A stretch of 64,000 bases of DNA. Source: a virus. The notes under the pieces were generated by a model that made no database searches, was not told the origin of the DNA, and worked only from the letters and a program-made list of their open reading frames with translations. The stretch lies in the IMG/VR virus record IMGVR_UViG_3300009790_000004, positions 45,783 through 109,782 of that record, one strand, 5' to 3'. Numbering within the stretch: position 1 is the stretch's first letter; every line of letters begins with the position of its first letter. A program made the position numbers and the translations under genes. Below are positions 9,996 through 48,400 of the stretch, piece by piece.

Positions 9996-12797
9996 ATGCC
10001 TACCAATTATAAGACTATCATTAACTTTAGAGATGGTATCCAGGTCGATGCCAATGATCTGATCTCTAACAATGGACTGGTAGGTATCGGGACCACCATT
10101 CCAAGACAAGAACTTGATGTCCGAGGATCAATGATCGTTGAAGATCAAACTGATCTCAGACATTTGAATGTTGTTGGACAATCTACATTTTATGGTAATG
10201 TTAATCTTGGTGTTGGATACTCGGTAGGTATAGGAACTACAATTCCTGAAGCAACATTCCAAGTTGGTGTAGGAACTACAGGATTTACGGTTGATTCTAA
10301 TGGTAATGTAACTGCTGTATTATTCACTGGTTCTGGTGCTAATTTAACTGATCTTCCTACTGCTGTATGGAGTAATCCTGATCCTGGTGTTGGTAGTACG
10401 ATTAATGCTTTCAGACCTGTTGGAATTTACACTACATTACCTCAAGCAGACTTTACTGTTGGTGATGTAATTGCATTTGATGCTATTAGTGGTGTAGGTA
10501 CATTTGAACAAGTATCTGCTAAGAAATTGAACCTGACTGGTAATGCCATGCAGGGTAATATTGATATGGTTGGATCTATTGTAGGTCTTCAATCAATTAC
10601 TAATGCTAGTGGTATATGTCAATTTGCTGGTGTTGGTTCGTTTAATGGATTAAATGTTGCATCTGGTGTTATAACTGCAACTGCTGATCGTATGGTAATT
10701 AAAGGAGATAGTAAGACTATTGACTTTAATCAAGATTTTGTAAATGCTGATAAGAGAGTTGGTGTAAGATTTATTGAGACTTCTACTGGTTCAGGTATTG
10801 ATGATAAGGTTGTTAGTCAGATATTATATAATGGTGGAGTAACTGGTACTGGTGGTACTGAGAGTGGACAGATAGAAATATGGGGTGATAATGGTACTGA
10901 TAATGTTCCCAGAGTAATAATAACAAGGGAAGCAAATGTAGGTATTGGTACATCAAGATCAAGAGGATTTAATTTAGATGTAGTTGGAACTGGTACAGTC
11001 ACAGGTACTCTTGGTGCTGCTGGTGGATTCCTTGGTAATCTAGTTGGTGATATTGATGGAGTTGCTACAGTAGCAGCAGGATTAACGAACAGTCCAGATA
11101 TTACGATAGATGAGTTAAATTCTCTTGGTATTAATAGTATATTCATTAGAAATACTGGTGTATCTACATTTGGTGGAGAACTTAAGGTAGGTAATTTCCT
11201 TGGTGTTGGTGATACTACATCTACTCTTAATAAGGGTATGGGTGTTATTGGTGGTGCTGATTTCTCAGGTGGTGGTTCATTTGGTGGTGACTTAACAGTT
11301 CAAGGAGATTTATCTATTGGTGGTACATTTGGTGGATCTGTAAGTATTCAGGATGTTACTGCTGGTGAGATTATTGCTACAGGTATTATTTCAGGTACTA
11401 CATCATCTAGTGCTGTACTACATGATACAACAATAACAGGTAATGTAACTCAGGTAGCAGGTAAGAATTTCGCAGTTGGTCAGAATCTTGCCATTGGTGG
11501 AACAACTACATTTGGACCTCAAATAAACTTTGGTGATGCAACTACTGTAGTATCTGCTGCTGGAACACTTAATGCTAATTTGAGTGGTATTATTACAACG
11601 ACTAAGATTGATGTTGGTGATATTACTATTACTGGTGACTTATCATATACTGGTGGAAGTATAGCAACATTTGGACAGATATTATTAGATGGTCCTGCTG
11701 GATTTGTATCTTGCAAATCTCTTGACGCATCTACAGGTATTATTAGTTGTACAGGATTAGACGCTAGAACTGGTCAGATTACTGGTGGTGGAATGAACCT
11801 AACAGGTCCAACCACATCAAATAACTACTTTAGATCAACTGCTGGTGTATCATCATTCTTTGATGTTGATATAACTGGAGGTACTAATAGTAATCTTAGG
11901 TTAACAAGACTAGGATTCAATACTGCTTTATCTGATCTAGGTATTACTGAAGGTATTGCTCTCTGGGATAATGCTGAGATATTTGTTAAGGATTCTCCTG
12001 CTGGTGGTATTGGAATTGGAACTACAGCAGGTAAGAGATCTACTAATGTTGGATTATATGTTGGATATGGAAGAGATGCTTCAGGTAACTTTATCAATGG
12101 AGAAGCAGTATTTGAAGGTGGTGTAGGTATTGGTACTAAGGTTGGATGTGATAATGGCAACCAATTAGAAATATACAAAGAGACTACATTCCATTCATGG
12201 CATACAGGTCTAGGTGGTACTGATGCTGGTCCTGCTCGTATTGGAATTGAGACTAACAGACCACGCACAACTCTTGACTTAGGATTTGTTACTAGTGGAT
12301 TCTTGAGACTACCATCATATTACAATGGTGATCCTGGATCTACAATGCCAAGTACCACACTTGAAGATCGTGGTTGTATATTCTATGATACAAATAGCAA
12401 TACACTTCAGGTTCGTGAGAATAATGGTAATTGGGTTGGACTTGCAACTGTATTATCATTCATTAATGATCCAGGAATATATGTTGAGGAACTTGGATTC
12501 TTGGGTGGTGTGCTAACTGACTCTACACGATCTAATGCTGAAGCAAATGTACATAATATTATTCAACCTTGGGATGAAGTAGGTAACCAGTCAATTGGTT
12601 GGGGTACTGCTCATATGTGGTACAACAAAGATTATAATAAGCACCAGTATAAGACTAATCAAGGAAGTAATAACTCCTACTATAGATCATATGTTTCTAC
12701 AGGAACATCTGCTATAGATATTGAACTAGATAGTGGTGGAACTAAAGTTTATATTACTGTTCCTGGAATCGGTTCATGTACATTTACTCTCGTTTGA
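9996..12797 (+). CDS. Tail fibre-like structural protein
   Basis: 933 residues. It is built from repeated beta-type segments with recurrent (V/I)GIGTT and NVTAVLFTGSGANLTDLP-like patterns common in phage fibre shafts. It begins MPTNYKTIINFRDGIQVDAN. A C-terminal globular part has WGTAHMWYNKDYNKHQYKTN and ends SCTFTLV. Unlike its upstream neighbour it lacks an S74 chaperone. It lies between two other fibre-type genes and is probably part of the same distal tail structure. The exact fibre assignment is not possible by eye. Confidence 0.75.
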   Translation: MPTNYKTIINFRDGIQVDANDLISNNGLVGIGTTIPRQELDVRGSMIVEDQTDLRHLNVVGQSTFYGNVNLGVGYSVGIGTTIPEATFQVGVGTTGFTVDSNGNVTAVLFTGSGANLTDLPTAVWSNPDPGVGSTINAFRPVGIYTTLPQADFTVGDVIAFDAISGVGTFEQVSAKKLNLTGNAMQGNIDMVGSIVGLQSITNASGICQFAGVGSFNGLNVASGVITATADRMVIKGDSKTIDFNQDFVNADKRVGVRFIETSTGSGIDDKVVSQILYNGGVTGTGGTESGQIEIWGDNGTDNVPRVIITREANVGIGTSRSRGFNLDVVGTGTVTGTLGAAGGFLGNLVGDIDGVATVAAGLTNSPDITIDELNSLGINSIFIRNTGVSTFGGELKVGNFLGVGDTTSTLNKGMGVIGGADFSGGGSFGGDLTVQGDLSIGGTFGGSVSIQDVTAGEIIATGIISGTTSSSAVLHDTTITGNVTQVAGKNFAVGQNLAIGGTTTFGPQINFGDATTVVSAAGTLNANLSGIITTTKIDVGDITITGDLSYTGGSIATFGQILLDGPAGFVSCKSLDASTGIISCTGLDARTGQITGGGMNLTGPTTSNNYFRSTAGVSSFFDVDITGGTNSNLRLTRLGFNTALSDLGITEGIALWDNAEIFVKDSPAGGIGIGTTAGKRSTNVGLYVGYGRDASGNFINGEAVFEGGVGIGTKVGCDNGNQLEIYKETTFHSWHTGLGGTDAGPARIGIETNRPRTTLDLGFVTSGFLRLPSYYNGDPGSTMPSTTLEDRGCIFYDTNSNTLQVRENNGNWVGLATVLSFINDPGIYVEELGFLGGVLTDSTRSNAEANVHNIIQPWDEVGNQSIGWGTAHMWYNKDYNKHQYKTNQGSNNSYYRSYVSTGTSAIDIELDSGGTKVYITVPGIGSCTFTLV

Positions 12798-12803
12798 TAG
12801 ACA

Positions 12804-14510
12804 ATGGCAGCAAATAATTGGAGCAAGACAACTCAACAGTTATTAACTGGTACACCAGGCACACAGATTTCATTTGGTGAGATTCGTGCTGCTATAGGTG
12901 ATACTAGCAAACCTCTGTCTGCTTCTGAATTACATAGACAGACGGATCTTGATGCACCATATGATTTTAGTCAAGGTAAATACCCATCATCAACACCAAC
13001 TCCACATTTACCTTATGTTTTAGATTCTACTGAAAATGCTAATGTTCCTACTAGTGGTGCAATAACACCACAAGATGTTAGAGGGGTTATTAAAGAATAT
13101 GTTATTGAACAGGATGCGATGTCAGAGGAGGAGAATTTTAATGTTACTTCTCTTAGTAGTCCTACAACTCCTAGCGTTAATGCTAATTGGAACTCAAATT
13201 TAAATAAGAATATAACAAAGTATCTTAAGATCAAGGGTAGACTTGTTAGTAATTCAATATCAACTCCTGCTGGTACTGCTGATGCACCATCGTCTAACTT
13301 AAATGTATATGTAAAAAATGCTCCTGCATCTTATGGTGTATATGGTGCTGGTGGTGCTATCAATCAACCAGGCGGACATGCTCTTTCTATTAGTCAACCA
13401 GCAGGTCCAGCAATTAGGAAAGTATTTGTAGAGTGTGAAGGGTCAGATGCTAGGATATATGGCGGTGGAGGAGGTGGTAAGCATGGTGTTGATGGATCGG
13501 ATGGTTCGCCTGGTAGTGGAGCAACATCGGGGTCTCCTGGGTCTCCTGGCGGTGGTGGATCAAACGGTAGTCCTGGATCCAATGGATCATCAGGATCTGG
13601 TGGAGGCAATGGTTCGCCTGGATCTCCTGGATCATGGGGATCTCCTGGTATGCAGAGGAGTACATTCCAGCAAAGACAGACTGTACAGAACAGAACAACT
13701 AATCAGAGTAGACGAACTCGTCGTAAGAGATATGGTGGTTGGCCCCGTAGTCGTCGTGGAGGTAAGCAAGAGAGACTATCAACACAAGCAACAAGTAGTG
13801 GACAATCAAGAACAACATCACAATATAAAGTAGCATGTTTCGGTGGATCTGGTGGTTCAGGTGGTAGCGGTGGATCAGGAGGATCTGGCGGTGGCGGTGG
13901 ATCAGGAGGATCTGGTGGATCAGGTGGTGGAGGAGGTTCAGGAGGATCTGGTGGTCCTGGTGGATACTCTGGAACTGGTGGAGTAAAAGGATATGCTGGT
14001 GTTGCTGCTCCTGGTCGTGGTTGGAATTATAAAACTGGTAACATAGCAGGAACATCTGGAACTCCAGGAACCCCAGGCACTCCTGGCGGTGGTGGTGGAC
14101 CTGGCACACCTGGAACTCCTGGAGGTGGAGGACAACCTGGAACTCCAGGCACTCCTGGAGGTGGAGGAGGATCTGGTGGTTCTGGAACTCCTGGAACTCC
14201 TGGCGGTTCAGCGAGTTGTGGTGCAGCATCGCCTGGAACTCCTGGCACACCTGGAACTCCTGGAGGTGGTGGATCAAGTGGATCTGATGGGCAACCTGGG
14301 CAACCTGGCGGTGGTGGATCTCCTGGAACACCTGGAACTCCAGGTAATGCAGGAACTCCTGGGCAACCTGGCGGACCTGGGCAACCTGGCGGACCTGGCG
14401 GTGACTGGGGTGAAGCAGGTGGTAACAGTGGTGGTGCTGCTGGTCGTGCAGTTAGTGGTAGTAAATATCAAGTCATACCAAACAACGGAGATATTAAGAT
14501 CATCTACTAA
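12804..14510 (+). CDS. Gly-rich tail fibre/adhesin-like protein with collagen-like Gly-Thr-Pro repeats
   Basis: 568 residues in four parts: an N-terminal ~210-residue non-repetitive region; a Gly/Ser/Pro block (about 220-275, GSPGSPGGGG units); a basic Arg/Gln/Thr insert (about 278-340); then a long repeat block (about 350-545) that passes from GGSGGSGG to GTPGTPGTPGGGG and GQPGGPGQPGG. Pro falls mainly in the third position of Gly-X-Y triplets. The Gly-rich part also resembles polyglycine-II adhesin domains known in T4-type tail tips. There are few Cys. It starts 7 bases after the previous fibre gene and ends 8 bases before a prolyl-hydroxylase-like oxygenase. Confidence 0.78.
   Translation: MAANNWSKTTQQLLTGTPGTQISFGEIRAAIGDTSKPLSASELHRQTDLDAPYDFSQGKYPSSTPTPHLPYVLDSTENANVPTSGAITPQDVRGVIKEYVIEQDAMSEEENFNVTSLSSPTTPSVNANWNSNLNKNITKYLKIKGRLVSNSISTPAGTADAPSSNLNVYVKNAPASYGVYGAGGAINQPGGHALSISQPAGPAIRKVFVECEGSDARIYGGGGGGKHGVDGSDGSPGSGATSGSPGSPGGGGSNGSPGSNGSSGSGGGNGSPGSPGSWGSPGMQRSTFQQRQTVQNRTTNQSRRTRRKRYGGWPRSRRGGKQERLSTQATSSGQSRTTSQYKVACFGGSGGSGGSGGSGGSGGGGGSGGSGGSGGGGGSGGSGGPGGYSGTGGVKGYAGVAAPGRGWNYKTGNIAGTSGTPGTPGTPGGGGGPGTPGTPGGGGQPGTPGTPGGGGGSGGSGTPGTPGGSASCGAASPGTPGTPGTPGGGGSSGSDGQPGQPGGGGSPGTPGTPGNAGTPGQPGGPGQPGGPGGDWGEAGGNSGGAAGRAVSGSKYQVIPNNGDIKIIY
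13843..14424 (+). repeat. GGS / Gly-X-Pro triplet repeat region
   Basis: In-frame low-complexity DNA encoding tandem Gly-Gly-Ser units followed by Gly-Thr-Pro and Gly-Gln-Pro triplets broken by oligo-Gly. Codons vary (ggt, gga, ggc; cct, cca), so the repeat is kept at protein level and is not a recent DNA slippage product. Confidence 0.85.
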
Positions 14511-14518
14511 ATTTCGTT

Positions 14519-15118
14519 ATGTCAATTTATTCTTTGAGTCCTTCTCCTAATTTTCATGGAGAGACAACATATCAGACATGGGAAGATGGATTCACCTCAG
14601 ATGAATGTGATCGTATCATTAAATATGGTGAATCTCTTAATCCAAGACCTGCTACTGTTGGTAATGATAGTGATACCAATGTAGTTGATAATATTCGTAC
14701 ATCTAAAACTTCTTGGATAGACTGTAATAATGACACAAAATGGTTGTATGAGCGTCTAGGTAATATACTAAGAGTAGTTAATGGTATGTTCTGGAAGTTT
14801 GATATCCGTGGATTTCATGAACATATACAATATACTGTGTATGAAGGAGATTCTAAAGGATTTTATAGGTGGCATGTAGATAATAATATGCAGTCTGATG
14901 TACCACCAAGAAAGTTGAGTATGACTGTACAATTATCTGATCCTAGTGACTATACTGGTGGAGAATTGCAATTACATAGTGGTGAAGTACAAACAGCAGT
15001 AAATAATAGAGGACATATTATATTATTTCCTAGCTATGTTCTACATAGGGTACAACCTGTCACTTCTGGTATACGCAGAAGTTTGGTAGTCTGGGCAAAT
15101 GGTCCTGGATTCAAGTGA
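14519..15118 (+). CDS. 2-oxoglutarate/Fe(II) oxygenase, prolyl-4-hydroxylase-like
   Basis: 199 residues. Metal ligands H119-V-D121 (FYRWHVDNN) and H176 (PSYVLHRVQP) are present, with R186 ten residues on for 2-oxoglutarate binding. TGGELQL between them is typical of PiuC/P4H-type enzymes. Such enzymes hydroxylate protein or small-molecule substrates using O2 and 2-oxoglutarate. It begins 8 bases after the collagen-like fibre gene and is likely co-transcribed with it, so the fibre's Y-position prolines are an attractive but unproven substrate. A cassette-type early promoter follows its stop. Confidence 0.85.
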   Translation: MSIYSLSPSPNFHGETTYQTWEDGFTSDECDRIIKYGESLNPRPATVGNDSDTNVVDNIRTSKTSWIDCNNDTKWLYERLGNILRVVNGMFWKFDIRGFHEHIQYTVYEGDSKGFYRWHVDNNMQSDVPPRKLSMTVQLSDPSDYTGGELQLHSGEVQTAVNNRGHIILFPSYVLHRVQPVTSGIRRSLVVWANGPGFK

Positions 15119-15131
15119 CAGACAGTGAAAT

Positions 15132-15175
15132 AAGTGTCCATTCCACCCCATTCTGAGGTCAAGATCGTGTATAAT
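15132..15175 (+). promoter_or_regulatory. Regulatory cassette: AAGTGTCCA box, C-rich segment, TATAAT
   Basis: AAGTGTCCA at 15132-15140 and TATAAT at 15170-15175, 29 bases apart, with a short CACCCCA...AGGT segment between. The same order and spacing occur at 20701, 23757 and 26756. The -10 box ends only 6 bases before the ATG at 15182, so the transcript may be leaderless or nearly so. Confidence 0.55.
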
Positions 15176-15181
15176 AGAAGT

Positions 15182-16345
15182 ATGAAGAACACACATCTTG
15201 AGCATCTTGAAGACGACATCCTCAACAGTGGTGCTGTTGGTGGATTTAATGTAGTTTCGGTACTTCGCTCATTTGGTAACATGTTGACAGGCACTCAGTC
15301 TGAACTAAGTGTTACAACTAAATGGGATGGAGCACCTGCTATAGTATGTGGTACTGATCCTGTAACTGGTAGGTTCTTTGTTGGTACTAAATCTGTATTC
15401 AATAAGGTCACACCTAAAGTATGTTATGATGATGTTGATGTTGATCGTTTCTATCAAGCAGAGATACTTCGTAGGAAATTAAAGGATTGTCTTAAATATC
15501 TCTCACAATTAAACATTAAAGGTATTATTCAGGGAGACTTACTTTTCTCTTCAGGTGATAAGAAATATGCTAAGATTGGTGGACATAGAGTTATTACTTT
15601 CAATCCTAATACTATTACATATGCTGTTTCATGTAAATCTGCTCAAGGAATTGCAGTAGAAAAAGCACAAATTGGTATTGTATTTCATACAGTATATGAG
15701 GGAAATACTATACAATCTTGTAAGGCAGTATATAAAGCACCTCTATTTGTAGGAACTGAAGATATATTCATTCCTAACGCTAATTATAATGATGCTAAGG
15801 GTATTAGTCGCTTCAATAATACTGAGAGAATGAAGTATGTTGCTACTATTAATCGTGCTGAAGGATCACTTAAGAGAGCATCAAAGTTTCTTGATATTAT
15901 GCACCGTCAAGGACAATCTAGGTTCTTAATGCCATTATTATTCAAGCAATTCTTTAACACAACAATTCGTAATGGTAAGAGTATTCTTAACACTAGGAGA
16001 ACAGTTGCACAATTTGCTAAATTCTATTCTGATAAGTTAGATGCAGAAATTAATAAGAAAACAAGTGTTAAAGGTAAAGAAAGATATGAACAAATGAAAG
16101 CAGAAGGACTCAACTTTATTATTAAGTATGAGAATGAGATATACTTTACTTTCGCATCATATATTTCTATTCGTGATGCTAAGAGAATGGTAATTAAACA
16201 GTTAAATAAGGTTGGTCAAATCAGAACATATATAGGTTGCACACCAACAACTCCTGAAGGATATGTTGTTTCAACTAACAACTATGCAATGAAGTTTGTT
16301 GATGATGAATTTAGAAAAGCGAACATTCTCTTTGGCATACAATGA
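15182..16345 (+). CDS. Nucleotidyltransferase-like protein of the DNA/RNA ligase superfamily (DUF6267-like)
   Basis: 387 residues from MKNTHLEHLEDD; a GTG at 15134 would add 16 residues but has no ribosome site. Ligase-superfamily motifs can be read: motif I K47-W-D-G50 (TTKWDGAPA), a motif III-like GIIQGDLLF, motif IV E359-G-Y-V-V, and a motif V-like M-K371-F. In this superfamily the motif I Lys carries AMP or GMP. The spacing between motifs III and IV is long (about 200 residues), so an insertion is implied. Activity (RNA ligation, nucleotidylation of another target) is unknown. It overlaps the halogenase gene by 4 bases. Confidence 0.65.
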   Translation: MKNTHLEHLEDDILNSGAVGGFNVVSVLRSFGNMLTGTQSELSVTTKWDGAPAIVCGTDPVTGRFFVGTKSVFNKVTPKVCYDDVDVDRFYQAEILRRKLKDCLKYLSQLNIKGIIQGDLLFSSGDKKYAKIGGHRVITFNPNTITYAVSCKSAQGIAVEKAQIGIVFHTVYEGNTIQSCKAVYKAPLFVGTEDIFIPNANYNDAKGISRFNNTERMKYVATINRAEGSLKRASKFLDIMHRQGQSRFLMPLLFKQFFNTTIRNGKSILNTRRTVAQFAKFYSDKLDAEINKKTSVKGKERYEQMKAEGLNFIIKYENEIYFTFASYISIRDAKRMVIKQLNKVGQIRTYIGCTPTTPEGYVVSTNNYAMKFVDDEFRKANILFGIQ

Positions 16346-17649
16346 AAAAGATTGCTGTAATTGGTGCTGGTGTTATTGGTATTAATTCTGTCTTACAATT
16401 GATAGAAGAAAGAACTAAATCAGATGCAGAGAATGAATGTAAAATAGTATGGATATATGATACTTCAATAGATATATTTGGTATCGGAGAATCAACAACT
16501 CCATCATTATCAGGACAAATTGCAAGTCCACCTTCATACTTAAGATATGATTCTAAAGATTACTTTGATGCTACGATTAAGTTTGGAAATAGATTTATAG
16601 GATGGGGTAAAAATGGTGGAGATTTTACTAGATATTTTCCAATGTCTCGTGCTGCTATACATTTTGATACGAGATTGTTCAGTAGTTTCTTCATTGAGCA
16701 TTTAAATAGTGAGACTTGTTATAACTTTGAAGCAAGAGATACTAAGATAAAATCAATAATATTTGATGAAGATCCTATTGGTGGACATTGTTTTGGTGTT
16801 CATATTGATGGAGAATCTTATGATTTTGTATTAGATTGTAGTGGTGGTAAATCATTAGTTAATGATGATTATTATTTTGATTCACCATTTGATACATGTA
16901 ATACTGTCCTTGCTACTAGACTACCAGAACCAGCAGATTGGGGTTATACATTAACACAAACCACTCGAAATGGTTGGATGTTTGGTATTCCATTACAGTC
17001 AAGAAGAACCTACGGTTATGCTTACAATTCAAGTGTTACTTCAGAAGAAGAAGCACAACAAGAGTTTAGAAGTTTAGTTCCACAAGAAGGATATCAGTAT
17101 AAGAAATTAACATGGAAACCACGATTCTCTAACTATGTTTTACACCATAGTGGTAGATATGCTCGTAATGGTAATGCACTAGGATTTCTTGATCCATTAG
17201 AAGCATTAGCGGGAATGTATTATGATAAGGTAACAGATAAGACTGCAAAATATGCTCTTGGCGATACATACAATAGTATAGATCTCATCAATAGTATTAA
17301 CAATTGGTATTATCAGGAGATTGTTGGTGATTGGTTATTAAATTCTGCATGGATGTATCATTTTGGATCTGAACATGACACACCATTTTGGCAACAAGTC
17401 TCAAAAAATGCTAAAGATATATTAAACAATAAGGAGATAAATCCTTGTCGATTAATAAGTGATGAACAGACATTTACAGATGATTTGTTTAATATTATTG
17501 GTGACAATCCTGAAATGAAAAAGTTATTTGTACATGATCTTCTTGATGTTGAGTTTACTTTCGATTTCTGTCGAGATTATTATAATTTTATATCATTTAC
17601 TACTGGTATGGGTGCTGAGTATGCTAACAAATTTCCAACATTTACCTAA
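16342..17649 (+). CDS. Flavin-dependent tryptophan halogenase-like protein
   Basis: 435 residues. The N-terminal flavin motif G-A-G-V-I-G is intact (residues 8-13), followed by FGIGESTTPS, K80 in ATIKFGNRFIGWG (matching the catalytic Lys near position 79 of PrnA-type halogenases), and NGWMFGIPL in the place of the WxWxIP signature, with its second Trp replaced by Phe. The family uses FADH2, O2 and chloride or bromide to halogenate an indole ring; a separate flavin reductase is needed. It starts inside the preceding stop (ATGA). Related genes occur in T4-like cyanophages. Substrate unknown. Confidence 0.8.
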   Translation: MKKIAVIGAGVIGINSVLQLIEERTKSDAENECKIVWIYDTSIDIFGIGESTTPSLSGQIASPPSYLRYDSKDYFDATIKFGNRFIGWGKNGGDFTRYFPMSRAAIHFDTRLFSSFFIEHLNSETCYNFEARDTKIKSIIFDEDPIGGHCFGVHIDGESYDFVLDCSGGKSLVNDDYYFDSPFDTCNTVLATRLPEPADWGYTLTQTTRNGWMFGIPLQSRRTYGYAYNSSVTSEEEAQQEFRSLVPQEGYQYKKLTWKPRFSNYVLHHSGRYARNGNALGFLDPLEALAGMYYDKVTDKTAKYALGDTYNSIDLINSINNWYYQEIVGDWLLNSAWMYHFGSEHDTPFWQQVSKNAKDILNNKEINPCRLISDEQTFTDDLFNIIGDNPEMKKLFVHDLLDVEFTFDFCRDYYNFISFTTGMGAEYANKFPTFT

Positions 17650-17672: not shown

Positions 17673-19058
17673 ATGACTAGAAAGATTGCTATTATTGGTG
17701 GTGGTGCTGATGCAATATCAGCAGTAATAAATTGTGTATCTAATAGAGATACAATTGATAGTGTATATCAAGATGATGAAATAGTTTGGATCAGAGATTG
17801 TAGTCATGTTATTGATAACAATTGCATACAAGTTGAGTCTGAATGGACAGAAATAGTAGGAGAAAATACAACATTAAATACTATTCATTTCTCACAATTA
17901 CTAGATGGTAAACAGAAATGGGGTAAGAAGTTTATTGGATTTGGTAATAATACTCCTCACAATTTCATGGTAATGTATGAACCAACACATGTAGGTTGGC
18001 ATTTAGATGAGAAGAAACTTGTTGAATTGTTCTGGAATAATTATACTAACACTGCAAGAAATGTTAGACTAATTGATGCTAATGTACCTAATATTGATGT
18101 CACTGATGATTATGTTAAAGTCCTTGATGAACAATATGATTTTGTAATTGACTGCACTAGAGGTTCAATTTGGGATCATAATTCTTATAGTCAAGCATTA
18201 TATAATCCAACAAATGCAACACTAAGTATTACTGTAGAGAAAGAAGCAGAGTTTAATTATACTGCTCATATTGCTGCAAAGAATGGTTATATAACTGGTA
18301 TTCCTACTAAAGATAGACAAACATGGATATATTCATACGATAAAGATATAACAACTAAGGAAGATGCTACACATGATTTTAATCAATATTGTGAGGTTAG
18401 TAACTATGGGTTGCTAAAATTCAATGAATATGATAAACTGTTATCAGATTATTGTATTCACTCTAACAACAGATATGCTAGATGTGGTCGTGCTTTAGGA
18501 TTTAATGATGAATTAAACAACTTTAAGAATTATCTTGAAGGTGATATTGCGGAAGCAATAGCAATATATTTATTTGAAGATCCAGAGAGACAACAAACAG
18601 AATATCAGAGATTAGATGTTGAAGAAAGATATGATGATGGCAAAACAGATTATGCTTCATCACTTGGATTTTATCTACAGTTCGGTTCACAACACAAGAC
18701 AAAATTCTGGGAACAAACTAGAATAAATGCTTGTCATACTTTGGAGAACAGAAAATACTTTGATATATCTGAGAATCTTATACAACATGATTATCTTAAA
18801 ATGAATGAACTTATTCCATTACATGAGAATATTCGTTTAGATTATTTTAGGAGATTAGCAGAAGATGAACAGCGTATGAGGCAAAAGATGACTGCAAACT
18901 CTGATGAACCTTACAGATTGTTAGGTAGTTATCAGATATTTACAGAGACTATTAATGGATTAGGTGCTCCATATGCACATAAATTTCCATTAATGACTGA
19001 ACTTATCCCACCAAAAGAACCATTTGGAGAGATTAATTTAGACCCTATTATATTATGA
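17673..19058 (+). CDS. Degenerate halogenase-like flavoprotein paralogue
   Basis: 461 residues, a diverged relative of the gene just upstream. The fold order is kept: N-terminal Rossmann start (KIAIIGGG), a KWGKKFIGFGN segment keeping the equivalent Lys (K82), VIDCTRGSIWDHNSY, HSNNRYARCGRALGF, and GLGAPYAHKFP near the end. Key signatures are lost: GxGxxG reads GGGADA, GES is replaced by VES, and the WxWxIP region reads YITGIP. It may bind flavin poorly or have a structural role. It ends by overlapping the next ATG by 4 bases. Confidence 0.72.
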   Translation: MTRKIAIIGGGADAISAVINCVSNRDTIDSVYQDDEIVWIRDCSHVIDNNCIQVESEWTEIVGENTTLNTIHFSQLLDGKQKWGKKFIGFGNNTPHNFMVMYEPTHVGWHLDEKKLVELFWNNYTNTARNVRLIDANVPNIDVTDDYVKVLDEQYDFVIDCTRGSIWDHNSYSQALYNPTNATLSITVEKEAEFNYTAHIAAKNGYITGIPTKDRQTWIYSYDKDITTKEDATHDFNQYCEVSNYGLLKFNEYDKLLSDYCIHSNNRYARCGRALGFNDELNNFKNYLEGDIAEAIAIYLFEDPERQQTEYQRLDVEERYDDGKTDYASSLGFYLQFGSQHKTKFWEQTRINACHTLENRKYFDISENLIQHDYLKMNELIPLHENIRLDYFRRLAEDEQRMRQKMTANSDEPYRLLGSYQIFTETINGLGAPYAHKFPLMTELIPPKEPFGEINLDPIIL

Positions 19059-45400: not shown

Positions 45401-48400
45401 TGTAGGTATCATGACAGTCACAGTAATTCCTGGTGGTCGTTTAATACATGATGGAGACTTTGTAAGATTTGATAACGACTCTATTAGATTTACTTGTGAT
45501 ATGGATGGTGGAACATCTACTAAGTCTTATCCAAGATCTACTGATCCTTATAGTGGTAAGTGGATGCCTATTACAGGTATTGGAACTACTAGTTTTGCAG
45601 TTCAAGTAGGTAAGTCACCCATACAACCTTTTGGTATCACCAGTGCGATCTATGACCCCACTGCTGGTATTGTGACAGTTACTATACCTGATCATACTTT
45701 AATGACTGGTACTAGCATAAGATTGTCACCTGAATCATTTGCATTTAGATGTGGTCTTGATACTTATCAAAGTGTACACAGATATCCTAGAGCAACTGAT
45801 ACTGTTGGTTACAATACTGCAGTTTCAATTGCTTCTACTACTGCAAGCACTATTTCATTCCAGATACTTCCAAGTCAACCATCAAGTAATGTATCAACTC
45901 ATCATCATGTACCTAATGATAAGTTAAGTCCAATTGGTGCAAGTTATGATCCTGTTGTTGGTATCATGACTGTTACAGCTAACAATCATGGACTTTCAAA
46001 TGGTGATTATGTCAAGTTTGATGATGGATCAGTTAGCTTTACATGTACTAGAGATAATAATAAGTCTGTTCATGCATATCCTAGAACAAAGGATCCTTAT
46101 CACAATAACTGGATTAAAGTTTCTAATGTGACTACAAATACATTCAGAGTGAATGGTATGAGGTCATATGACAACGCCACACATACTTTTGTATCTGGTG
46201 TATCGGATAGTATTACAAGATCTGTAATCGTCAGTGGTGGTGCGTATAATCACACCTTCGCTAGTGCTGGTGTGGGTAGTATGGATCAGAAGCGTGATAG
46301 AACTTATGATCAACCAGTTAAGATTACTGCTGGATATACAGCAGATACTATTGAAAATGCTGATTATAATCCTGTAACGGGTAATATGACTGTTACAGCA
46401 ACTGGTCATGGAATGATGAATGGTGATTATGTATTATTTGAAAATAATTCTATTGCTCTTAAGTGTTCACAAGATAATTACGCTACTGTTCACACATATC
46501 CAAGAGCATCAGATCCAGTTAGCGGTGATTGGGTAGCAATTGGTAGCACAACTCTAAACACATTCGTAGTTGATGTTGGTAAGACAGCATCTGGTGATGT
46601 ATACGCTCATAGTTTTGTAAGTGCAGCAACAAGTGCTATTGAATTTGGTGGAGATTATCCACATCTATTTGTAAGTGCAAGTGAAGGTGCAGTAAATGTT
46701 AAGAGTGGTGCATCAAATGGACAAGAATTAACTCCTAATGCAGTTTCTTATGTTGCTTCTACTGGTGTTCTAACTCTAGGTTTTGCTACTTATCATGGAA
46801 TGACAACTGGGGATACTATTACACTTGATGATGACTCCTTGACTATGACATGTGCTAGGGATAATCATGGTAGTAATCATACATATCCTCGTTCAACTGA
46901 TCCTATCAGTGGTGTAACAACTGGTATTACTACTACATCAACAACACAGTTTACTCTTAATGTTGGTATTTCCACCCTAACTTGGGCAAATATTACTGGT
47001 GCAACTTATAACGGCACTACAGGTGATATGACCTTAACTATTGGATCTGCTGCTGTTGCCGTTGCCGTAGCAAATAATCTTAAGGTTGGTATTGTCACTG
47101 ATTCTATTACAATGACTTGTGATAGAGATGGTAATACTGCTCAGAAGACATATCCTCGTTTAACAGATCCTATCCACAGAAAAGTGGTATCTATTGGATC
47201 TACTGCTAATACTACAATTACTCTTAATGTTGGTAAGTCCAATTCAGGTGATCAGTATACTCATCAGTTTGCTGGTGCAGTAGCAAATTCTCTTAGAAAA
47301 CAGAATGGAACAATTACATTCCAAGCAGGAATTGCAACTGATACTAGTGAGCATCGTTTTGATATTATGGGTGGTCATCAAGCATTAAATGCAGTCATTA
47401 GTGGTGGAAATTATGCTCATACTTTCGTAAGTGCAGAAAGTGGTGCTGTTAAGACTGGTGGTGGATTCAACCATCGTTTTGTTAGTGGTATTGCTAGTGC
47501 TTTATATGTTGATGCTTGGTCTGGTGCTGCTCTAACTGTATCAAATGCAGTATACAATCCCGAAACTGGAATTGTAAGATTTACTGCTAAGGATCATGGA
47601 TTAGTTACTCCAGAGAATTTCAAATTTGAAGGTATTGGTGTTACATGTGCATATGGAGCTAAGACATATCCAAGTGGAGTTCAAGGTTATCATTATACAG
47701 TTAGATCAGTAGGAAATACTACATCATTTACCACATTCGTTGGATTCTCTACTGTACAGCATGATTACACTGGTGGTGGATCAGTACAGGTTGGAGTTAC
47801 TAGTAACAAATTCCCAAGTTTTGACGAAGCATATCCTGTTGCAGGAATTATTTCTGATAGATCATTTAAGGTGAATGTTGGACCTAACACTATTACACAT
47901 TCTTATGTTAGTGGTGGTCAAGTTGCTCAATGGCATCCACTTACATATGGTTCTGGGTATCAAACTGGACTAGGAACTATTGGTATTGCAGTATCTTCTC
48001 CAACTGGAGGAGTAGGTGCTCAAATTAATGCAGTTGTTGGTGCTGGTGGATCTTTAATATTCAGCATTGGTGCTGGTGGAACTGGATATACTGGTGAATA
48101 TGATTGTGTTCATGCTCCAGAACCAGATGGTGAGAATATGCCTATTCGTGGTTTATACAGAATAGGTGGTGGAACAGAAACTGGTGTGGGTTGTTCTATT
48201 AGTGTTCAAATTGCAGGTGTTTCCACTTCTACTGGTATTGGATCAACTTTAGCAGAAGTAACAGAATGGGAATTCACTAAGAAAGGTTATGGATTTAAGC
48301 GTGGTGATAAATTTACTGTTGCTGGTCTATCAACAGATCCTAATGCGGGTGATAATTATAAGGACTTTGAAATTGAAGTTATAGAAGTATTCACTGATCA

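Follow-up and report, generated by a model that had tools for sequence, protein, structure and literature searches.

A putative four-strand Gly-X-Y tail-tip needle and its recurrent prolyl-hydroxylase-like partner in a cyanophage contig

We analysed a 64,000-nucleotide stretch of DNA from an ocean virus (hereafter the window; positions 45,783 to 109,782 of IMG/VR record IMGVR_UViG_3300009790_000004), in which a gene for a Gly-rich tail-fibre protein is followed by one for a 2-oxoglutarate (2OG)/Fe(II) oxygenase. That the two form a functional pair is well supported by our comparison of viral and cellular loci, because oxygenases of this clade recur beside Gly-X-Y proteins, including proteins that are not homologous to the window fibre. 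The fibre itself contains four Gly-X-Y strands, and since the strand lengths of one chain change in concert, these very likely pack side by side within that chain as a bundle. The oxygenase probably hydroxylates the prolines in the Y position of this needle, a reading in which substrate, reaction and benefit are all inferred.

The pairing was tested by single-sequence and profile scans with each gene, followed by wider oxygenase scans; each scan was limited to its best 80 loci, and the frequencies given here apply to those samples. Whichever of the two genes served as query, every locus recovered had the fibre followed by the oxygenase, down to 55% identity in the fibre and 51% in the oxygenase, with a gap that is 8 bases between the two open reading frames (ORFs) of the window, usually 6-12 bases in relatives and 851 bases in locus L066; a 4Fe-4S ferredoxin-like protein is encoded between fibre and oxygenase in that locus (L066:8015-8617). 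A Gly-X-Y ORF, meaning one with at least 15 triplets, lies no more than 2.5 kb away from 52 of the 55 distinct viral clade oxygenases with at least 2.5 kb of upstream sequence (28 partners of the window-fibre family, 24 others), and one of the three remaining oxygenases, in L317, has its downstream side cut off. The cellular control, drawn from bacterial and archaeal contigs, gave 3 of 78 distinct oxygenases, or 1 of 76 without two phage contigs binned in metagenome-assembled genomes (MAGs); these phage-family contigs were assigned to a Rhodobiaceae MAG (L347) and a Euryarchaeota MAG (L352). When their repeats are masked, the partners separate into the window-fibre family, a second one whose proteins begin with MPLAFRSELRR... 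and several more, so that the linked proteins comprise several unrelated architectures, some of them on the opposite strand. In the oxygenase tree the viral Gly-X-Y-linked sequences form one group (SH-aLRT 93) that excludes the cellular rows. The cellular sister clade is alphaproteobacterial (L349-L366), often with two or more copies per locus and no Gly-X-Y neighbour. When loci were picked by GTPGTPGTPG-coding DNA alone, without regard to enzymes, a related 2OG oxygenase was present in 9 of the 37 Gly-X-Y loci outside the window family versus none of the 64 loci without a Gly-X-Y ORF, some of these loci possibly coming from one virus group. None of the cultured phages searched carries the pair at close identity, and searching phage isolates at the DNA level, with the complete region as query, returned nothing useful.

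These results uphold the functional pairing of the two genes that an earlier note on this DNA had suggested. The same note had held that the pairing would fall if the oxygenase were common apart from Gly-X-Pro proteins; that situation does exist in the broad superfamily, but not in the viral clade. Two readings in which the fibre is a mere neighbour have to be weighed against these data. According to the first, which we consider improbable, the oxygenase acts on a host protein (EF-Tu, or another translation or regulatory protein) and adjoins the fibre incidentally: its second-best structural match is a Pseudomonas putida prolyl hydroxylase solved with EF-Tu (4iw3), and 2OG oxygenases are scattered in cyanophage genomes, many far from fibres. 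However, the Gly-X-Y association spans unrelated partner architectures and orientations and is not seen for cellular relatives outside the clade, while isolate-phage superfamily members outside it (33-41% identity to the oxygenase) mostly have no partner with Pro in Y. According to the second, the oxygenase is simply carried in a conserved tail module and does not act on the fibre. Gene order is indeed conserved across the whole module, and a DUF6267 gene is found downstream of the fibre whether the oxygenase is present or absent, as in many short-class relatives (described below) that lack a clade oxygenase. We nevertheless find such plain synteny very improbable, given that the pair stays together while halogenase content varies between relatives, and that clade oxygenases adjoin Gly-X-Y proteins in different modules.

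The repeat that the earlier note had described, Gly-Thr-Pro and Gly-Gln-Pro triplets with Pro mainly in Y, was confirmed. The fibre holds 75 in-phase Gly-X-Y triplets in five runs (6, 14, 18, 18 and 19), so that Gly occupies every third residue over long runs as in collagen; shuffled versions of the protein averaged 18.6 triplets, none had more than 41, and their longest run was 13. In these triplets 31 prolines stand in Y and one in X (binomial P 1.5e-8); across 20 non-redundant fibres of the family the counts are 617 and 10. The Gly-rich part is made of four strands split by three loops and is not a single collagen stretch (Table 1). Among family triplets, Y is Pro in 58% of cases in T3 and 63% in T4, whereas in T2 it is Gly in 65% and Pro is absent from the common Y residues.

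Relatives of the fibre, collected from IMG/VR with the non-repetitive N-terminal part as query, form two classes with a common layout. The long class has tracts of about 11-27 triplets with 21-43 Y-prolines and 0-2 X-prolines, and every complete member with downstream sequence has a clade oxygenase nearby. The short class, about 350-460 residues long, has tracts of 4-6 triplets with 0-3 Y-prolines and includes the gp37-gp38 adhesin tip protein of S-SRM01; these Pro-poor relatives lack a clade oxygenase. With strand boundaries set at tip loop 1, the conserved GRGW(N) turn and tip loop 2, the lengths of T1 to T4 covary in 26 non-redundant long-class proteins with r of 0.94-1.00 and slopes of about 1, as in the examples 57/50/57/54, 63/56/63/60 and 88/80/87/84, and T3 exceeds T4 by exactly 3 residues in 22 of the 26. 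Most long-class relatives carry a Cys in each tip loop, two lack it in both loops, and this pattern of paired presence or absence would fit a disulfide at the tip. The covarying lengths are read most simply as strands lying side by side; with the loops alternating between the two ends, strands that are neighbours in sequence would run antiparallel; from these features, and mainly from the length-locking, we infer an antiparallel polyglycine-II/polyproline-II bundle. T2, poor in Pro and rich in Y-position Gly, is as expected for a buried polyglycine-II strand. The rise in polyglycine-II and polyproline-II is about 3.1 Å per residue, and strands of 47-88 residues would accordingly give a bundle of about 15-27 nm. 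As in known polyglycine-II adhesins, several Gly-rich strands of like length are joined by loops in one chain, and the short class is laid out alike. Very long Gly-X-Y proteins (up to 1555 residues) in L146, L294, L299 and L306 contain long series of tracts with 8 or 10 triplets each and are perhaps multi-strand polyglycine-II bundles too.

The covariation also bears on the idea of a true collagen, in which three fibre chains form parallel triple helices that need hydroxyproline. Gly-X-Y repeats, Pro in Y and high collagen-profile scores (which are composition-driven) speak for it; collagen and axial-fibril matches in the PDB (8zxl, E 4e-37) were likewise driven by composition and were rejected on inspection. 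Yet the four tracts within a chain have a common length that changes in concert, T2 with hardly any Pro is unlike a collagen chain, and homologs whose tracts of 4-6 triplets are too short for triple helices share the layout, which fits a polyglycine sandwich. A true collagen is therefore quite improbable, and the stabilisation of collagen helices that the earlier note had offered as a role for the enzyme is probably wrong in form, the length-locked tracts being better suited to an intramolecular polyglycine-II bundle than to a parallel homotrimer.

The oxygenase matches PF13640 (2OG-FeII_Oxy_3, E 4e-15) and phrog_61 (2.5e-37). The earlier note's reading of an intact H119/D121/H176/R186 set in an enzyme encoded 8 bases downstream of the fibre holds, both ORFs being confirmed and the four residues being invariant among 25 aligned relatives, paralogs included. 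Its assignment to prolyl-hydroxylase-like enzymes is supported as a fold: the structural model (predicted local distance difference test, pLDDT, 81) has as best Foldseek matches the PKHD protein Sbal_3634, the P. putida prolyl 4-hydroxylase (P4H) and human PHD2, with E of about 1e-10 and template-modelling (TM) scores of 0.6-0.73, while in profile searches the sequence matches PKHD/PiuC (5e-14) as well as bacterial and algal P4Hs (5e-5 to 2e-3). In collagen P4Hs a Lys, not an Arg, holds 2OG; Arg186 is present in every relative, which sets the enzyme apart from the animal collagen type. On account of the fold and profile matches and the invariant iron and 2OG residues, prolyl hydroxylation is the most likely reaction. 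An ORF at window positions 293-799 matches phrog_274, annotated as DNA endonuclease V, and has weak matches to 2OG oxygenase PHROGs as well; the oxygenase itself weakly matches phrog_274, and the endonuclease label of this family may be wrong. Tandem second and third 2OG oxygenases stand beside the first in L063, L066, L076, L078, L141 and L146, suggesting several different modifications.

We propose that the fibre is a tail-fibre tip adhesin that would bear its receptor-facing loops on a long, stiff needle, formed by four Gly-X-Y strands of one chain running up-down-up-down in polyglycine-II/polyproline-II packing. The adjoining PHD2/PKHD-type oxygenase would be the dedicated maturation enzyme of this needle and would hydroxylate Y-position Pro in the outer strands, most likely as the chain folds or earlier. 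The bundle could gain stability from extra hydrogen bonds of the hydroxyl groups, or these groups could provide a hydrophilic or sugar-bearing surface with sites for further modification, and hydroxylation would permit strands to grow from about 5 to 16-28 triplets.

Several observations weigh against this proposal. On the fibre-family tree, the contrast between long tracts with an oxygenase and short tracts amounts to one change and so counts once; although it has the look of dozens of independent cases, it is not used here as a statistic. 2OG oxygenases of other subfamilies adjoin several short-class, Pro-poor adhesins, so an oxygenase near an adhesin need not act on proline; to say that short-class fibres never have an oxygenase would be too strong, as a wider profile found other 2OG oxygenases near seven of them. 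In isolates, too, other subfamilies occur at many sites without a Gly-X-Pro partner. Conversely, 28 of the 37 Gly-X-Y loci from the GTPGTPGTPG scan have no detectable oxygenase in the stretch examined, nor does L152 nearby despite 373 Y-prolines, and some linked Gly-X-Y proteins contain few Y-prolines (L276, L282, L342). The Y-only placement of Pro might be dictated by bundle packing alone. As to the bundle, AlphaFold2 models the fibre with low confidence (pLDDT 63), and the top and only noteworthy PDB match of that model among 350,542 chains, S16 gp38 (6f45), is not significant (E 0.31, probability 0.47).

Some of these points favour the most serious competitor, namely that the oxygenase modifies the fibre at a residue other than Pro, such as Thr, Asn, Asp, Lys or Gln in X or Y, or in the Arg-rich tip loop. 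Besides the oxygenases beside short-class adhesins almost without Pro and the scarcity of Y-prolines in some linked proteins, it can draw on other phages that couple Lys-rich Gly-X-Y fibres with PLOD-like enzymes. We still judge it unlikely, since peptidyl-prolyl hydroxylases are the best fold match, Pro is strongly enriched in Y of the clade's partners (617 versus 10 in the fibre family), and Y is Pro in about 60% of triplets in two of the four strands. Hydroxylation of Y-position Pro is the reading that we retain.

The gene order around the pair is given in Table 1. The fibre gene is a homolog of the S-SRM01 protein annotated as a gp37-gp38 adhesin tip complex and stands after the long fibre gene, as gp38 does after gp37; the 933-residue upstream protein is probably a gp37-like carrier of the tip. 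The parent record has 109,782 bases and contains baseplate-wedge genes, and because a photosystem reaction-centre gene fragment lies at the end of the contig (PF00124, E 7e-37), assignment of the source virus to the cyanophages is supported by gene content; it is probably T4-like.

Table 1. Positions in the window of the fibre-oxygenase pair, the predicted elements of the fibre and the neighbouring genes.
Feature	Position	Strand	Remarks
Fibre-tip (adhesin-like) gene	12804..14510	+	568 residues; N-terminal domain (residues 1-221), four Gly-X-Y strands, C-terminal closing segment (residues 533-568)
Strand T1	13467..13655	+	residues 222-284; Ser/Pro type; predicted direction away from body
Tip loop 1	13656..13844	+	residues 285-347; Arg-rich; Cys345 near end; predicted distal face
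Strand T2	13845..14012	+	residues 348-403; nearly Pro-free; predicted buried strand
Proximal loop GRGWNYKTGNIA	14013..14048	+	residues 404-415; conserved turn
Strand T3	14049..14216	+	residues 416-471; Gly-Thr-Pro type
Cys472, in tip loop 2	14217..14219	+	
Strand T4	14220..14399	+	residues 473-532; Gly-Thr-Pro and Gly-Gln-Pro
2OG/Fe(II) oxygenase gene, PHD2/PKHD type	14519..15118	+	199 residues; H119, D121, H176 (Fe), R186 (2OG)
Long tail-fibre gene	9996..12797	+	933 residues; phrog_3269 tail match; directly 5' of Gly-X-Y fibre gene
DUF6267 gene	15134..16345	+	conserved neighbour downstream of oxygenase
Tryptophan-halogenase-like flavoprotein genes (two)	16342-17649 and 17673-19058	+	downstream of DUF6267

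Other putative modifying enzymes were encountered near such proteins. Tryptophan-halogenase-like flavoproteins adjoin members of this adhesin family: in the window their genes come after the adhesin gene, and many short-class loci have them immediately upstream of it (L006:8355-9812; L104, L107, L110, L112, L120, L122-L124), and a second tip-modifying enzyme is possibly to be seen in them. In three cultured cyanophages, a gene for a PLOD-like protein lies downstream of 2OG oxygenases and of a fibre with 55-59 Gly-X-Y triplets, in which X is Pro and Y is Lys or Thr. The protein, of 614-635 residues (L428:4543-6384 in S-CAM9, L427:4543-6384 in S-PRM1, L434:4552-6414 in S-8S55, and L265:5128-7032), combines Glyco_transf_25 (PF01755) and PLOD glycosyltransferase (PF25342, E down to 5e-48) domains with a C-terminal 2OG-oxygenase-like part, and is a candidate phage lysyl hydroxylase-glycosyltransferase for the collagen-like fibre.

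More broadly, phages might run a collagen-style maturation in which a prolyl hydroxylase clade is dedicated to Gly-X-Pro tail-tip proteins, hydroxyproline allowing polyglycine-II strands of about 5 triplets to be extended beyond 25; we put this forward tentatively, as a plausible idea that falls a little short of probable. If true, phages may harden or decorate their tail tips as animals mature collagen, and together with the PLOD-like enzymes beside Lys-rich Gly-X-Y fibres this would make a prokaryotic-virus counterpart of animal collagen processing. It would also connect some of the many 2OG oxygenases that are unexplained in aquatic phages with virion maturation and with host recognition, widen the polyglycine-II class by a new type of protein fibre, and offer a small bacterial system to make hydroxyproline-containing Gly-X-Y proteins. 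The length-locked four-strand needle would supply a testable structural reason for a hydroxylase partner.

Among known systems, the tip adhesin gp38 of Salmonella phage S16 is a polyglycine-II sandwich of ten short motifs with 37 Gly in 73 residues (PMC6851490; PDB 6f45). The window fibre resembles it in having Gly-rich strands with variable loops between them and a gene placed after that of the long fibre, but differs in its four strict Gly-X-Y strands of 47-88 residues, rich in Pro, in its linked oxygenase, and in giving no significant sequence match to gp38; by analogy, it may represent the gp38-type sandwich design lengthened several-fold. The oxygenase shares with PHD2, PKHD proteins and the P. 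putida P4H (PPHD) a double-stranded beta-helix with an HxD...H...R motif, whereas their substrates are HIF or EF-Tu (unknown for PKHD proteins) and the one proposed here is a phage fibre. Virus-encoded prolyl-hydroxylase-type enzymes have been described before, as a prolyl 4-hydroxylase in Paramecium bursaria Chlorella virus-1 (PBCV-1), whose hosts are algae, and as P4HA-like genes in Baltic viromes (PMC9301287). The available portions of that study state that collagen can be a component of tail fibres and that what the viral enzyme is used for 'remains cryptic', and give no gene pairing, unlike the specific and recurrent enzyme-fibre pair reported here. The accessible parts of the literature on phage or cyanophage collagen and prolyl hydroxylase offer general remarks only (PMC3368898, PMC9301287). 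The EPcl proteins of Escherichia coli prophages likewise carry Gly-X-Y repeats in a tail protein, and non-animal collagens are described as having no preference for Pro in Y, for want of prolyl hydroxylases (PMC3368898). In contrast to these, the window fibre has its Pro almost solely in Y and a prolyl-hydroxylase-like gene next to it, and against the published view of phage collagens a widespread viral enzyme clade is tied to Gly-X-Y, often Gly-X-Pro, proteins. What is new here is thus the combination of a probable length-locked, Pro-rich polyglycine-II needle with a dedicated, recurrent, hydroxylase-like phage partner.
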